Assembly: GCA_028875575.1 (NCBI GenBank)
Contig: JAPPDF010000080.1
Span: 1-39,103, forward strand
DNA: 39,103 bases
Direction: 5' to 3'
DNA from: Acidobacteriota bacterium
Lineage (GTDB): Bacteria > Acidobacteriota > Terriglobia > Versatilivoradales > Versatilivoraceae
Part shown: positions 6,206 to 36,916 of the stretch, piece by piece
How the letters are laid out: every line of letters starts with the position of its first letter
Numbering within the stretch: the stretch's first letter is position 1
Notes under the pieces: model-generated
Told to the model about the DNA's origin: nothing
The model's input: only the letters and a program-made list of their open reading frames with translations
The model's database searches: none
Program-made: the position numbers and the translations under genes

Positions 6206-6448
6206 ATATTCCAATAAACAAGCACGTTTCCCCTTGCAGCATTGCGAGTCAGGGGAGAGCTGCGAAGCTGCGGTTGACGTGGGTTCCCCGACAAGACGCC
6301 ACCTACGGGCCATCCTTATAGAGCTGCGTAGCTGCGGCTCAGGGTAGCCCCGGGTGGCAACCCGGGGTCGTATGGGTTTCGCGCCAACCTAGCCGCGAAT
6401 GCGGCGAATAGGAAGCACCCTTCCCGGAAAGCAATGCCTCCACAAAAA
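6206..6448 (+). repeat. 240-bp dispersed repeat, copy 1
   Basis: This sequence is repeated in the opposite orientation at 24268-24501. Shared segments include AGCACGTTTCC, GAGACGCCACCTACGGGC-like text, TCCTTATAGAGCTGCG, GGCTCAGGGTAGCCCCGGGT and GCCGCGAATGCGGCGAATAG. It contains a palindrome CCCCGGGT-GGCA-ACCCGGGG (6348-6367). It fills most of the 367 bases between the convergent helicase and mutL genes. No open frame here is credible. Nothing else is seen in 6107-6205. Confidence 0.85.
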
Positions 6449-6473
6449 AGTAGGGGACGCCAGGTCAGCACCT

Positions 6474-11766: not shown

Positions 11767-12018
11767 GAGAATTCCATTGGACAGGCTCGATTGGGGCGCT
11801 TCAACCCAATGGCGGCCCTGGGCGGGAACCCGTCGTTTGAAACGGAATCCGCACGCCCCTGGGAGAAACGCGGCATCACCGGCGGCCTGACTGCCGCAGA
11901 CGCGACCGCCGCCAAAAACGAGTAAAGCTAACACAAGCCATCCGGCCAGGCAAGCAGCCCCCGACTTGCCTGTACCATCTTCCCTGGCTAGCTGCCCCCC
12001 CGCCCTTCCGTGCCGATC

Positions 12019-12249
12019 ATCCGAGAGTGAAACAACGGATCTTCATAGGCTGTCGGGAACAAGGACCATGTTCGGTTAGCACGGATTTCTACCTATTGAA
12101 CATCGATTCACAGGATGCACAGGATTAACTGGACGAGGGCTTCCTGCACCAGAAGCCGGCTCGGGCGATGATTCGATGCGGAGTTGCGGATTCCCGGCAT
12201 TGGAAGCCAGCCGTTTCCTGAAAAATCCTGTGCATCCTGTGCATCGATG
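12019..12249 (+). mobile_element. MITE-like element R1 (CATCGATG terminal repeats) with left extension
   Basis: The core is 12101-12249. Its 26-base ends are inverted copies with one mismatch (CATCGATTCACAGGATGC... against ...GCATCCTGTGCATCGATG). The interior is shared with R2 and R4 (inverted) and R3 (same orientation). The left extension 12019-12100 also matches 16910-16999 next to R3 (landmarks GAAACAACG, TCTTCATAG, CTGTCGGG, GTTAGCACGG). No transposase is present. It sits in the 849-base divergent gap between hisS and the epimerase-like gene. Nothing is seen in 11767-12018 apart from frame extension of hisS. Confidence 0.85.
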
Positions 12250-12255
12250 TTAATT

Positions 12256-12495
12256 ATCCCTGTAAATCACGATGTGGAGGGAAGCGCCCCCTAGTGGCTT
12301 CGCCGCGGTCCTTGGTGGCCCTTTGCGAACTAATCCTTTTTGTCCCTTGTGTCCTCTTTTGACCCCCTTGCCGACCCTTGGCGCATCCCTCTCGAGCCTT
12401 CTCCACCGCCTTGGTGGCCCTTCGTCGTCCTTCGTGTCCCTTCGTGGATTTCTTTTTCTGGCCCTTGCGGTTCACCCGCGTTTGCTCCAGGCAAC
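12256..12495 (+). repeat. Block B repeat joined to element R1
   Basis: The text beginning ATCCCTGTAAATCACGATG and containing CCTTGGTGGCCCTT, CCCTTGTGTCC, GAGCCTTCTCCA and CCTTCGTGTCCCTTCGTGGA matches the reverse complement of 14486-14670 with small indels, and 8560-8661 in part. It is internally repetitive. Together with R1 it forms a composite of about 480 bases. In R2 the same two blocks occur in the same relative order and inverted, so they seem to travel as a unit. Confidence 0.8.
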
Positions 12496-14460: not shown

Positions 14461-14485
14461 GCCTGAAAGAAGGCCTGAAACAAAA

Positions 14486-14670
14486 GAAAAAAGAGTTATC
14501 CACGAAGGGACACGAAGGGGTTGGAGAAGGCTCAAGAGGCATGCGCCAATGGTTGGCAAGGGGGTCAACGAAAGACACAAGGGACAAAAAAGGATTTGTC
14601 CGCGACGGGACAACAAGGACCACGACCGAGCCAGTGGGGGGTTCTTCCCGGCGCATCGTGATTTACAGGG
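14486..14670 (-). repeat. Block B repeat joined to element R2
   Basis: This is the reverse-complement copy of 12256-12495, lacking one internal segment of about 25 bases (the CCTTGGTGGCCCTTCGTCG part). It begins 25 bases after the methyltransferase stop and runs straight into R2. Landmarks are TTATCCACGAAGGGACACG, GGTTGGAGAAGGCTC, GACACAAGGGAC and CATCGTGATTTACAGGG. It has no coding potential. Confidence 0.8.
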
Positions 14671-14836
14671 ATATTGAACATCGATGCACAGGATGCACAG
14701 GATTTTTTCAGGAAACGGCTGGCTTTCAATGCCGGGAATCCGCAAATCCGCATCGGATCATCGCCCGAGCCGGCTTCTGGTGCAGGAAGCTCTCGTCCAG
14801 TTAATCCTGTGCATCCTGTGCATCGATGTTCAATAT
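14671..14836 (-). mobile_element. MITE-like element R2, perfect 34-bp terminal inverted repeats
   Basis: The arms 14671-14704 and 14803-14836 are exact reverse complements over 34 bases, beginning ATATTGAACATCGATGCA. The 98-base interior is the reverse complement of the interior of R1 (shared text GGAAACGGCTGGCTT, ATGCCGGGAATCCGC, GCCCGAGCCGGCTTCTG). It encodes no protein. It is the best-preserved copy in the window. It lies between the methyltransferase and the DUF3311-like gene. Bases 14837-14984 show nothing but the likely leader of the latter. Confidence 0.9.
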
Positions 14837-14984
14837 ATGGGGATCCGGTTTTCACTCCCATATGATCTTCCCGGCACGGCCAAGCCGCATCCTGCGCAGC
14901 CCGGGACCCCGGCGGGACCTGTGGTATGATGCTCTTCCTACGAGGCGATACCGCCGGGACTCCTCTCACGGAACCCCACACTCC

Positions 14985-16710: not shown

Positions 16711-16909
16711 ACGGATTCAAGTGTACATTCCTACAATCATGAAGAGCCTCCCTCCCGCGTCCCCGGCGACGGGACGGATCATACGGAGTGAAACAGGGAT
16801 GCTTGAGACGAGTGAAGAGTGGAGAGTGACGAGCTGTTCGATCGACACGCCGAGCATCTTTTCGGTCTCGGCACGGTCCTTCAAATTAGTGCCGCCACCG
16901 CCCTGCTGG

Positions 16910-17150
16910 GCAGATCATTGGAGGATGAAACAACGAATCTTCATAGCCTGTCGGGGAAAAGGGTCCTGTTCCGTTAGCACGGTTTTCCACCTAATTGAAC
17001 ATCGATGCACAGGATGCACAGGATTAACGGGACAAGAGCTTCCAGCACGAGAGGCCAGCTCAGGCGATGATCCGGTGCGGTTTTGCGGATTCCCGGCATG
17101 AAGAGCTAGCCGTTTCCTGAAAAAAATCCTGTATATCCTGTGCATCGATG
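16910..17150 (+). mobile_element. MITE-like element R3 with left extension
   Basis: The core 17000-17150 has 26-base inverted ends with two mismatches (right end reads CTGTATATCCTG). The interior matches R1 in the same orientation. The left extension 16910-16999 matches 12019-12100. It lies in the 545-base convergent gap between the symporter and the Na/phosphate transporter. In 16711-16909 I see no gene, terminator or repeat. Confidence 0.85.
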
Positions 17151-17225
17151 TGAATAAAAAATTTGCCCATGCTCGACTTTGAACCGGTTTCCAGCCACTA
17201 GGCGCCAGCGTTTGTTCCAGACAAG
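17139..17225 (+). repeat. Block C repeat flanking element R3
   Basis: The sequence at and after the right end of R3 matches the reverse complement of 3249-3330. It runs through TGAATAAAAAATTTGCCCATG, GAACCGGTTTCCAGCCACTA and GGCGCCAGCGTTTGTTCC. The same GCGTTTG-TCCAG tail also ends block B near 12478-12495, so the blocks share an end. It lies just beyond the 3' end of the minus-strand Na/phosphate transporter gene. Confidence 0.7.
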
Positions 17226-19307: not shown

Positions 19308-20273
19308 ATGAAGGCGGTTGTCTATGATCGAAGGCTTGAAGTTGTAGACGCGTCCAAGCCGGTCTTCACCGGGGACGAGAGCGTGGTGCGTCTCATCCAG
19401 GCAGGAATCTGCAACACCGATCTTGAAATCACCAGGGGGTACTTCGGATTCAAGGGCGTGCTGGGCCACGAGTTCGTCGGCAGAGTCGAGTCTTCCAGGA
19501 CTTCGTCTCTGGTGGGCGCCCGGGTGGTTGGAGAAATCAACGCTTCCTGCTGCCGCTGCGAGTTTTGCCGATCCGGATGGGGCAGACACTGCCCCCAACG
19601 CTCGGTGCTGGGAATTCTGAACCGGGACGGCGCCTTCCGCGAGCACTTTACCCTTCCCGAGCAGAATCTCCATCCAGTTCCCGACTCGGTCTCCGACGAC
19701 GACGCGGTCTTTGTGGAACCGGTCGCCGCTGCCTGTGAGATTCTAGACCAAGTCGACATTCAAAGGGTCGAAAAGATCGCCGTCCTGGGAGACGGCAAGC
19801 TGGGACTGCTGATCGCCATGGTCCTGGCTCAGGCCAGGCGGGCCACCTACCCTCCCTTGACCCTGATCGGCAAGCATCCGGAGAAAATGCGCCTGGTTGA
19901 AGACCTGGGGGTCAGCACCCTCCACCTCGGCTCGACCCAAACGGCCGCCCGTTCGTTCCAGCTGGTGGTGGAAGCCACCGGTTCGCCGTCGGGACTGGAC
20001 CTTGCTCTTCGACTCCTGGAACCGCGCGGCACGGTAGTCCTGAAGTCCACCTTTCATGGACAGCAGTCCTTCGATCCGGCCTCGGTGGTGGTGGATGAAC
20101 TCACCCTGTTGGGGTCTCGCTGCGGCCGCTTCGAACCAGCCCTCGATCTGCTGGTCCGCAAGCGCATCCGCCCCAGCCGATTGATCCGGGATTCCCTGCC
20201 GTTGACCAAGGCGGTAGAGGCGTTCCGACGGGCTCAATCCCCCGGTGCGCTGAAGGTGTTGCTGCATCCGTGA
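19308..20273 (+). CDS. Zinc-dependent alcohol dehydrogenase (MDR family)
   Basis: The 321-residue medium-chain dehydrogenase has catalytic zinc ligands C35 and H54 with E55 (GHEF). Its structural zinc loop has the standard spacing C81-x2-C84-x2-C87-x7-C95 (CCRCEFCRSGWGRHC). The nucleotide-binding Rossmann motif is AVLGDGKLGLL near residues 148-158. Such enzymes oxidise alcohols, polyols or threonine with NAD(P). The substrate is not evident. CGGAG lies 6 bases before the ATG. It is divergent from the unknown membrane-anchored gene and convergent with the carboxyltransferase. Confidence 0.9.
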   Translation: MKAVVYDRRLEVVDASKPVFTGDESVVRLIQAGICNTDLEITRGYFGFKGVLGHEFVGRVESSRTSSLVGARVVGEINASCCRCEFCRSGWGRHCPQRSVLGILNRDGAFREHFTLPEQNLHPVPDSVSDDDAVFVEPVAAACEILDQVDIQRVEKIAVLGDGKLGLLIAMVLAQARRATYPPLTLIGKHPEKMRLVEDLGVSTLHLGSTQTAARSFQLVVEATGSPSGLDLALRLLEPRGTVVLKSTFHGQQSFDPASVVVDELTLLGSRCGRFEPALDLLVRKRIRPSRLIRDSLPLTKAVEAFRRAQSPGALKVLLHP

Positions 20274-24117: not shown

Positions 24118-24267
24118 CGGTGCCTTCCAAATTCGCCAAGAAATCCCTTGTCCGCACTCAGCCCGAGTTTATCACGCTTGGATTCGACTCTTACGGGGGT
24201 TGAGCCATGGGCCTGCGCTCAGCTCACACGGCAACGTTGTGCGGCCGCCTGGGGCGGCGTTTCTTTG

Positions 24268-24501
24268 GAAAGCAATGCGTTCCCGAACGGGTGCTTCCTA
24301 TTCGCCGCATTCGCGGCTGGGTTGGCGCTGACCCATACGACCCCGGGTTGACACCCGGGGCTACCCTGAGCCGCAGCTTCGCAGCTCTATAAGGATAGCC
24401 CGTAGGTGGCGTCTCGCCGGGTAACCCCGTCAACCGCAGCATTCGCAGCTCTCCCCGAACCCACAACGCTGCAAGAGGAAACGTGCTTTTCTATTTAGAA
24501 T
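24268..24501 (-). repeat. 240-bp dispersed repeat, copy 2
   Basis: This is the reverse complement of 6206-6448, with high identity across its central part and the CCCCGGGT palindrome conserved (GGTTGACACC loop variant). It occupies the centre of the 542-base gap between uvrB and fabF. I see no gene or clear regulatory site in 24118-24267 or 24502-24659. Confidence 0.85.
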
Positions 24502-30929: not shown

Positions 30930-31108
30930 AGGAGTTCCGCCGGGCATTCTCCCACGGCAAGCTGTGCGTTGGGAGACGCAGCTCTTAATTCGCTGCATAC
31001 GCGTTTCTCCCTTAACCCACGACACTACCGGTGGATAGGATTTTTGGATGATTATCTCCGGGCGTCTGCTCCCCAATTTCGCAAAACGCCCTTCAAAAAA
31101 CTCAAGTG

Positions 31109-31270
31109 TCACTCCCCCCTTGAGGGGGAGTCGCAGAAGCCGAGCCGAATGGCGAAGACTGATGCGGAGGGGGGCCAACGCCGAGGTCCCAGCCAGGGGG
31201 CGCCCGCAGCCCAAGGCCGTCAGGAGTCGCAGAAGTCGAGCCGAATGGCAAAGGCTGATGCGGAGGGGGG
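31109..31270 (+). repeat. ACTCCCCC-family repeat with two 46-bp direct copies
   Basis: 31109-31133 matches the inverted-repeat arm at 144-168 base for base. It is followed by two near-identical copies (31129-31174 and 31225-31270) starting AGTCGCAGAAG and ending GATGCGGAGGGGGG, with a 96-base period. They fill most of the 361-base gap between the radical SAM and enolase-superfamily genes on the minus strand. Nothing else is seen in 30930-31108. Confidence 0.8.
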
Positions 31271-35293: not shown

Positions 35294-35362
35294 CGGCTGA
35301 TTGCAAGTATAGGGAGCGGCTAATTGCAAGTTTTGGGAGCGGCCAGTTGCAACGTTCTTGTC
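35294..35362 (-). repeat. Three 23-bp tandem repeats upstream of DUF456 gene
   Basis: Units start at 35294, 35317 and 35340, each beginning CGGC and carrying a TTGCAA palindrome at 35301, 35324 and 35347. The spacing is about two helical turns. Another TTGCA at 35416 is exactly three periods further on. They lie 11 bases before the DUF456 start codon and could be repressor or activator sites. I know of no regulator with this site. Confidence 0.6.
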
Positions 35363-35501
35363 CCACGGTCGCGGCGGTGGCGCATTCTCCCCACCTCGTC
35401 AGCTACAGGGACAAATTGCAGGGTTGAACAGGATACACGGAATTGGGTCTCCGCAGTCCGGCGTCCCGCAGTCCCGTGCATCGTTTGAATGAACTGTAAA
35501 G

Positions 35502-35649
35502 ATCGATGCACAGGTTGCACAGGATTGTTCTGGAGACGGCCTGCTTGTAATCCGGGGCAGCCGCAAATCCCCGCGCCATCATTGCCAAAGCCGGCTACCT
35601 GTGCAGTGGGCTCCCGTCCTGTTTGTCCTGTGCATCCTGTGCATCGATG
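35502..35649 (-). mobile_element. MITE-like element R4, diverged
   Basis: The ends (ATCGATGCACAGGTTGCAC and GCATCCTGTGCATCGATG) are inverted copies with a few mismatches. The interior matches R2 in the same orientation at lower identity (TAATCCGGGGCAGCCGCAAATC, AAAGCCGGCTACCTGTGCAG). It is the most diverged of the four copies. It lies in the 437-base gap between the amidase and DUF456 genes. Bases 35363-35501 show no other feature, and 35650-35719 show none. Confidence 0.8.
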
Positions 35650-35719
35650 TAAATCCACTAGATGTCGCCCCCCGGCGCCGGGCCGTTCCCCCCCACCGCA
35701 TCAGCTCTTGCGGACGACT

Positions 35720-36916
35720 CTATTCGACCTGCAGGATTTCGGCGGCTTCGCGGGCGAAGGCGATCAGCATCTCGTCCGACCCTGGAGCCGCGATCAGGGA
35801 CAGCCCTACCGGCAGCCCCTCGACTTCGGCCCAGGGCAGGTTGATCTGGGGCGCGCCGATGGTTCCTGCGGTACAGGTAAGCTGGACAATGCGCGAGGTC
35901 AGGGGGCGCCGCTCGGACATGGTTTGCGTTCGAGGCGGAGGCGGTGTGGGGGCCGTGGGCAGACAGACCACCGTATCCCCGGCCAGCAGGGTTTTCATGC
36001 GGGCCATCACCTTTTGCCGATCCGCCAGGGCGGTGGCCACCTCCTCGGGTGTCACGCTCCTGCCGGCCAGGCAACTCTCGGCCACATGAAAGCTCATCCT
36101 GGGGTTGATGCGGTCGATCCATTCCCTGACCACTTCCCAAGCTTCGCTGCTTGCCCGTACCCGCTGGCCAGCGGCCCAGTCCGAGAGGCTGGTGGGGGCC
36201 AACCGCTCTCGCCTGGAGAGGCCGATCAAGGCCCCCAGGCGCTCCACCACGGGCTCGAGGGCCTCCCGGACCGACGGGTCAGCCACCTCAAAGGCATCCT
36301 CCGCCACCACCAGGCGGCGCGGCCGGCCCGGCCCGATCCGGGTCTGCAGCAGCACCGACCCTACCCGGGCAAACAGGCCGGGGTCCCGCGCGAACCAACC
36401 GGCGGTGTCGTAGCTGGGTGCCTGCAGCAGCATTCCGTCCAGGGAAATGCGCCCGTGGGTGGGGCGCAACCCGTAGAGTCCGCAGAATGAGGCCGGTATC
36501 CGCACCGAGCCGCCGGTGTCGGAGCCCAGGGAGAAATCGACCAGGCCGCCCGCCACGGCAGCCGCCGAGCCGCTGGAGGAGCCCCCGGGAACGCGCCCGG
36601 GGGCTTGGGGGTTCAGGGGGGTTCCGTAGTGGGCGTTGACGCCCAGAATGCCCCGGGTCAACTCGTCGGTATGGGTCTTCCCCACCATGGTGGCGCCGGC
36701 GCCGACCAGGACCTCCACCGCCCAGGCGGTGGCTTGAGCGACCGGCTGACTGGCCTTCCAGTCGGGATTGCCCCCACCGGTCACATGACCCTCGACGTCG
36801 AAGATGTCCTTGGCGGCGAAAGTCAGCCCGGCCAAGGGACCCTCGCCGGCCCCCTGCAGAAAGGCCCGGCTGTCCTGGCAGAAGGCGTTGAGTTTATCGT
36901 CTAGAGGCACATGCAC
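35720..36916 (-). CDS. Amidase signature family enzyme, AMI1-like
   Basis: Amidase-signature hydrolases cleave amide bonds with a Lys-Ser-Ser triad. Here K36 (AAKDIFD), the serine run S113-S115 (PGGSSSGSAAAVA) and nucleophile S137 (SDTGGSVRIPA) are present. The sequence around them (DIFDVEG, GNPDW, NAHYGTPLNP, DTGGSVR, DTAGWFARD) strongly resembles plant AMI1 indole-3-acetamide hydrolase as I remember it; this is recognition, not a search. I start at GTG 36916 because GGAG lies 9 bases upstream; the alternative ATG 36985 adds 23 unconvincing residues. It is on the same strand as the FG-GAP gene, 103 bases away. Confidence 0.85.
   Translation of the reverse strand: MHVPLDDKLNAFCQDSRAFLQGAGEGPLAGLTFAAKDIFDVEGHVTGGGNPDWKASQPVAQATAWAVEVLVGAGATMVGKTHTDELTRGILGVNAHYGTPLNPQAPGRVPGGSSSGSAAAVAGGLVDFSLGSDTGGSVRIPASFCGLYGLRPTHGRISLDGMLLQAPSYDTAGWFARDPGLFARVGSVLLQTRIGPGRPRRLVVAEDAFEVADPSVREALEPVVERLGALIGLSRRERLAPTSLSDWAAGQRVRASSEAWEVVREWIDRINPRMSFHVAESCLAGRSVTPEEVATALADRQKVMARMKTLLAGDTVVCLPTAPTPPPPRTQTMSERRPLTSRIVQLTCTAGTIGAPQINLPWAEVEGLPVGLSLIAAPGSDEMLIAFAREAAEILQVE

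Follow-up and report, generated by a model that had tools for sequence, protein, structure and literature searches.

Dispersed 166-bp inverted repeats in an Acidobacteriota genome as likely miniature derivatives of an element carrying a GxxExxY nuclease gene

We analyzed a 39,103-nucleotide stretch of DNA from a bacterium of the Acidobacteriota (contig JAPPDF010000080.1 of assembly GCA_028875575.1, hereafter the window) and found that an intergenic repeat of 166 bp, R2, is by its sequence a shrunken, decayed, internally deleted derivative of a 502-bp one-gene element. The repeats have common ends, have undergone internal deletion, and have multiplied, and composites containing the repeat core have inserted into the genomes that carry them. 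We consider it likely that a unit composed of an arm, a GxxExxY gene, and a second arm gave rise to the repeat as a miniature, non-autonomous form and that the GxxExxY protein, by recognizing and cutting the arms, brings about copying or transposition of this unit and, acting in trans, of the miniatures. The role of this protein as the mover is one that we infer from the sequences.

The repeat, its copies, and their distribution

The features of R2 and of its sister copies in the window are collected in Table 1. The two 34-nt arms of R2 are 100% complementary and are separated by 98 nt, and the relatives R1, R3, and R4 occur in varying orientation, with both orientations present; all four copies were placed between called genes. 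These results agree with a preliminary description of this DNA, which had reported the perfect arms and the related intergenic copies. The arm motif occurred eight times in the window when up to three mismatches were allowed, compared to 0.00 times in shuffled sequences. Copies elsewhere in the genome, which that description had proposed looking for, were plentiful: the genome (G000; 4.49 Mb in 101 contigs) contained at least 40 core-length copies (40 of the 102 first-look candidates scored) and at least 77 exact arm matches, compared to 0 for a reversed control pattern.

Table 1. Coordinates of the repeat, its parts, and related features in the window
Feature	Position	Strand	Remarks
R2, miniature GxxExxY element (arm, gene remnant, arm)	14671..14836	-	Gene sense is the minus strand
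R2 arm 5' of gene remnant, ATATTGAACATCGATGCACAGGATGCACAGGATT	14803..14836	-	Inside the old reading frame, LNIDAQDAQD
R2 arm 3' of gene remnant, AATCCTGTGCATCCTGTGCATCGATGTTCAATAT	14671..14704	-	
Remnant of GxxExxY codons 1-32 in R2	14744..14833	-	56% amino acid identity to the intact gene, C80:213081-213582
Remnant of final GxxExxY codons in R2	14705..14725	-	AAGCCAGCCGTTTCCTGAAAA versus AAGACGGCTGTCTCCTGAAAA
R1, miniature-element copy	12094..12257	+	Gene remnant 12096-12179, plus strand
R3, miniature-element copy	16994..17151	+	Gene remnant 16995-17084; among five near-identical recent copies
R4, most divergent copy	35499..35650	-	Separate protein match not listed
476-bp composite with R3	16748..17223	.	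Missing in G005 (clean empty site)
448-bp composite with R2	14474..14921	.	In G002 and G005 (up to contig end); missing in G001
Composite repeat block with R1	11995..12470	.	Modules X, core, B
391-bp block with R4	35330..35720	.	Missing in G005
Second-type GxxExxY arm, GAGTTATCCACGAAGGGACACGAAGG	14490..14518	+	Belongs to module B
Second-type GxxExxY arm (GAGTTATCCACGAAGGGACACGAAGG) beside R1	12429..12457	-	

Many cores were present in all seven genomes of the genus, and a search of 54 other relatives returned one marginal core match and no more. Among 395 other Acidobacteriota genomes, none contained an exact match to the arm. When named genomes were scanned, the matches listed (at least 120) came mostly from the host genus, among them Candidatus Versatilivorator vitaminiformans and OX638355.1, with several more from Chloroflexota, namely, Dehalococcoidia, SAR202, and one groundwater genome. 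The Chloroflexota elements had identical arms and were again multicopy, with different centers and outer flanks. Mis-binning is an unlikely source of the Chloroflexota matches because one of these is in a chromosome-level assembly, OX638345.1. The plasmid and phage DNA searched for the core gave no match, and the arm pattern was not found in the viral contigs searched for it. Several of the named members of the genus are sponge derived, and we take marine sponges to be the habitat common to these samples.

Other dispersed repeats were also observed. Two Y1_Tnp genes (L135 and L136; G000:C99:14925-15269 and 19905-20135) have palindromic repeats of their own (CCGCGTATGCGG and GGGCGGGACGCCCGC) and appear to form a separate REP-like system. 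An Acido-Lenti-1 RNA (RF01687) match at window positions 24341-24386 lies within an inverted repeat pair, with relatives at 6213-6449 and 24260-24495, and sequence similar to the Acido-Lenti-1 region adjoins the Y1 transposase gene L135. Repeats of the ACTCCCCCCTTGAGGGGGAGT type at window positions 31101-31139 and 84-168, present also at L190 and L389, belong to a further dispersed palindromic family.

Relationship of the core to a GxxExxY gene

In one Chloroflexota genome, an arm without a partner adjoins a gene whose product ends in ...GLLINFGSPKVEFQRFTRSTS and is a GxxExxY protein, scoring 142 bits against TIGR04256 (cut-off, 35) and 140 bits against PF13366 (cut-off, 22) and thus passing both. 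A search for the family in 13 genomes then yielded an intact gene, here called type 1, at C80:213146-213487 on the window's own contig, and the GxxExxY gene of the host genome scored 144 bits against PF13366. The type-1 gene is bordered on both sides by arms (ATTGAACATCGATGCACAGGATGTACAGGAT...ATCCTGTTAATCCTGTATATCCTGTGCATCGATGTTAAT), and the complete parent element of arm, 150 codons, and arm is 502 bp long (C80:213081-213582), with ends as in R2. The preliminary description had proposed a non-autonomous element whose transposase is encoded elsewhere; a gene with matching ends does lie, intact, on the same contig, but its product is a PD-(D/E)XK GxxExxY protein and not a classical transposase.

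That description had also stated that the repeats carry no protein, and this needs correction, since a decayed coding remnant was found on the minus strand of R2. When the intact GxxExxY protein of the host genome was used in a tblastn search, it matched R2 over amino acids 1 to 32, as well as R1, R3, and approximately 25 further copies, and the start of the match was nearly always in an arm. At the DNA level, the center of R2 aligned with the gene over 63 nt without gaps, with a local score of 46 compared to 18.6 +- 2.7 for shuffles (maximum, 37; n = 2000), and the 3' end of R2 also aligned with the end of the gene. On the gene strand, 37 of 43 copies scored more than 5 standard deviations over shuffles, which kept base composition and not dinucleotides, and on the opposite strand none did. 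The consensus of the 43 copies, read on the strand that is the minus strand of R2, is LNIDAQDAQD-stop-QDESFLHQKPARAMIRCGFADSRHCKLAVS-stop (in excerpt, LNIDAQDAQD-stop-QDESFLHQKPARAMIRCGFA...KLAVS-stop) and corresponds to the first approximately 32 and the last approximately 6 codons of the GxxExxY protein (PF13366/TIGR04256), the middle having been lost. Most of the tested copies have this form between two arms. In R2 itself, the reading frame is broken by stops and a deletion, leaving no intact gene. Less-deleted intermediates were also found: in L094, which adjoins module A, codons 1-34 are joined to codons 114-150 between arms, L090 has codons 1-46, and L087 has codons 20-110. No clear GxxExxY remnant was seen in the centers of the Chloroflexota elements, and a comparison of the two arms within each copy for correlated changes gave no overall signal (24.16 versus 24.11 shared positions).

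Across 21 GxxExxY sequences, G41, E44, Y47, D83, and K95 were invariant and E93 was present in at least 90%; D83, E93, and K95 are the acidic residues and the lysine that a PD-(D/E)XK nuclease would be expected to have, and the alignment indicates that they are retained. A single-sequence AlphaFold model had a mean pLDDT of 47.6, too poor for a reading of the fold, and a profile search of the PDB gave insignificant matches that included T7 endonuclease I (E, 0.86 to 0.91). The defence library that was searched gave no match, the phage set lacked GxxExxY, and each query for it matched 7 to 8 plasmid records.

The type-1 gene lies at the same conserved location in G000, G006, and G002 and so gives no sign of recent movement. 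None was found in G001, G003, G004, or G005, though these genomes are rich in cores and G001 is a complete chromosome. Given the conserved locus in three genomes and the G001 cores without a type-1 gene, many copies must be fossils. The host genome has a second intact GxxExxY gene (L395; G000:C99:7803-8144), which lies between CCACAAAAGGCACAAAA-type arms.

Arms and GxxExxY genes in other subfamilies and phyla

Each GxxExxY subfamily has an arm sequence of its own, including a CACGAAGG type, which is the module B arm, a CACGAATGG type, a CACAAAAGG type, and others. We scored the flanking sequences of 27 GxxExxY genes from Acidobacteriota, Chloroflexota, Bacteroidota, Pseudomonadota, and other groups, plasmid-borne genes from other phyla included. 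The controls were 4000 windows drawn at random from the available loci. For 21 of the 27 genes, the flanks carried matched inverted repeats whose score reached or exceeded the 99th percentile of these windows; because several of the loci are mutually orthologous, the 27 do not represent 27 independent events. The mean inverted-repeat score was 19.2, compared to 8.0 in the controls and 8.6 when flanks were cross-paired, and most of the matched repeats were composed of CAC-led units of approximately 9 bp. The flanking repeats were clear in Bacteroides finegoldii, Bernardetia, and Sphingomonas, and the Treponema gene had a short repeat whose score of 11 was slightly under the cut. No flanking inverted repeat was found at the GxxExxY loci of Fusobacteria, Gemmatirosa, and Persicobacter. 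The occurrence of these nuclease genes between matched inverted repeats in several bacterial phyla suggests small mobile DNA of a type not previously described.

The G001 genome contained approximately 15 partial GxxExxY matches, most of them over profile positions 75-114. Five were inspected, and four of these (L403 to L406) have the same coding fragment between CACAAAAGG-type arms. By their sequence, the partial matches in G001 are remnants of the CACAAAAGG-type gene and make up another set of deletion derivatives, independent of the first.

Two Chloroflexota loci (L392 and L393, in G450 and G451) carry another GxxExxY subfamily and adjoin CAGAAGCAGGATTTTCAGGATT-type inverted repeats, with further copies just downstream. 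In the closest relative, the gene of the CACGAAGG type (L388; G005:C140:426-659) contains a stop codon and gave a partial profile match; this gene is intact in G002 and G006, in surroundings similar to those of L388.

Insertion of composites and explanations for their spread

Copies of the repeat are modular, with module A or B upstream of the core and module X or Y downstream, and the copy number rises from approximately 10 to 24 outside the core to 37 at its boundary. Five near-identical R3-type copies have a common sharp left end, CTTACCTGAAACAAACG. The composite containing R3 was absent from the same place in G005, G001, G002, G004, and G006, and further empty sites, spanning 398 to 671 bp, were found for L011, L018, L017, and L027. 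These clean orthologous empty sites demonstrate that composites with the core have inserted at some sites after the species diverged. Comparison of empty sites in relatives, also proposed in the preliminary description, was thus productive, but the sites span composites of 390 to 670 bp that enclose the core and are longer than the arm-to-arm sequence, so that insertion of the bare core alone was rejected. The outcome at orthologous positions was mixed: R1 and R2 are old enough to occur in the closest species as well, and R3 and R4 are lineage specific. Three junctions of the A-core-X type were compatible with a 2-bp CT duplication, and the others had none or a different one.

At L041 (core, 986-1142), an 8-bp direct repeat, AGTAAATT, occurs on either side of the sequence from arm to arm. 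It may be a target duplication of the bare unit, and the other copies do not confirm it. At L086/L059 (G000:C42:19078-20996), approximately 1.8 kb separates modules A and X, and between them are genes judged from their sequences to encode an ArsR-like regulator and a VOC-family protein, an arrangement that looks like cargo held by two element halves.

In the mechanism that we favor, the GxxExxY protein, as a PD-(D/E)XK nuclease, would recognize arms built of the approximately 9-bp units and cut at them, leading to copying or transposition of its own element, and it would also mobilize the miniature derivatives in trans. As with RAYT genes and their REPINs, the miniatures would multiply and the gene would keep a low, conserved copy number. 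A less probable alternative is that some other transposase acts on the outer ends of the composites, which have an outer TGAAACAAACG...GTTTCACTC frame and would be its MITEs, with the GxxExxY-derived core as no more than a passenger. It would account for the spanning of whole composites by the empty sites, the sharp left end of the five R3-type copies, the CT junctions, and one orthologous site at which the frame is identical but the filling differs (L033 versus L190). However, no gene with those outer ends was found in a transposase search, which covered the Y1 family, the ends differ in some inserts (L027, L011, and L041), and the same arms lie within unrelated outer frames in Chloroflexota. 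The probabilities that we attach to the favored mechanism and to the passenger explanation are not exclusive, since both have the same derivation of the core.

We think it unlikely that the arms spread through homologous recombination and gene conversion among short shared repeats, as a NIME-like mosaic without a dedicated enzyme. Modules are indeed shuffled at arm boundaries, the core of L010 is inverted relative to that of L012 between identical flanking modules, and C97_56913 shares A and the core with a diverged right module, but the precise empty sites at nonhomologous places, the five near-identical young copies, and the matching of an arm type to every GxxExxY gene call for something beyond recombination. 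That the genome's Y1 (RAYT-like) transposases mobilize the repeats as REP or REPIN elements has very little probability in our estimation, even with two Y1_Tnp genes present and an inverted-doublet layout that is REPIN-like (PMC3116915), since both genes adjoin other palindromic repeats (GGGCGGGACGCCCGC and CCGCGTATGCGG) with no arm seen near them and the core derives from GxxExxY; what survives of the REP-type reading in the preliminary description is the logic. The other reading offered there, a structured RNA, gained nothing beyond the hairpin expected of any perfect inverted repeat. A fixed functional RNA or regulatory hairpin would fit the strong predicted folding (z, -9.7) and the presence of R1 and R2 in the closest relative, yet it is highly improbable for a core that lacks an Rfam match, varies in presence between lineages, occurs in both orientations, and has a decayed reading frame at its center.

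The NIMEs of Neisseria, with their dRS3 repeats, are modular repeat blocks set apart by short inverted repeats. The repeats described here are similarly built of modular blocks and short inverted repeats but differ in that a gene family, together with the products of its deletion, lies between the inverted repeats. Like MITEs, they are short, multicopy, and intergenic, have terminal inverted repeats, derive through internal deletion from a coding element present in the same genome, and are dispersed with insertion polymorphism at orthologous sites, the polymorphic unit here being the larger composite. Unlike MITEs, they have a parent that encodes a PD-(D/E)XK GxxExxY protein instead of a known transposase, arms that are repeated units of approximately 9 bp, and no clear target-site duplication at the arms. 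With the REPIN/RAYT system (PMC3116915) they share an inverted doublet of a short repeat that is extragenic and dispersed, the flanking of a cognate gene (here GxxExxY) by the same repeat, a low and conserved copy number of that gene, and the pairing of gene types with repeat types. The differences are that the cognate gene does not encode a Y1 HUH transposase, the arms are arrays of 9-bp units and not REP palindromes, and the miniature retains gene remnants. By analogy, MITEs and REPIN/RAYT would be the closest known logic, operating here with an unrelated nuclease.

The parent gene belongs to the GxxExxY family (TIGR04256/PF13366, PDDEXK_3), scoring above the curated cut-offs. This nuclease family is widespread and has no known function. 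The literature on GxxExxY and PF13366 available outside subscription journals, as far as its accessible text extends, gave no link of the family to a mobile or repeat system, and exact arm-like strings were absent from the literature searched; our statement of novelty applies within this literature. A broader proposal, for and against which we see the evidence as evenly poised, is that one-gene mobile elements whose inverted arms consist of approximately 9-bp CAC-led units may form a new class, with GxxExxY nucleases as their enzymes, and that the CACGAAGG-, CACAGGAT-, CACAAAAGG-, and CACGAATGG-type intergenic repeats, here and probably in other environmental bacteria, may be the miniature offspring of these elements. 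The orphan GxxExxY family would thereby gain a concrete, testable role, a class of dispersed repeats in these genomes would be explained, and a parallel to RAYT/REPIN that uses an unrelated nuclease would be added, with the pairing of arm types and gene subfamilies offering ready-made substrates for a cleavage assay.
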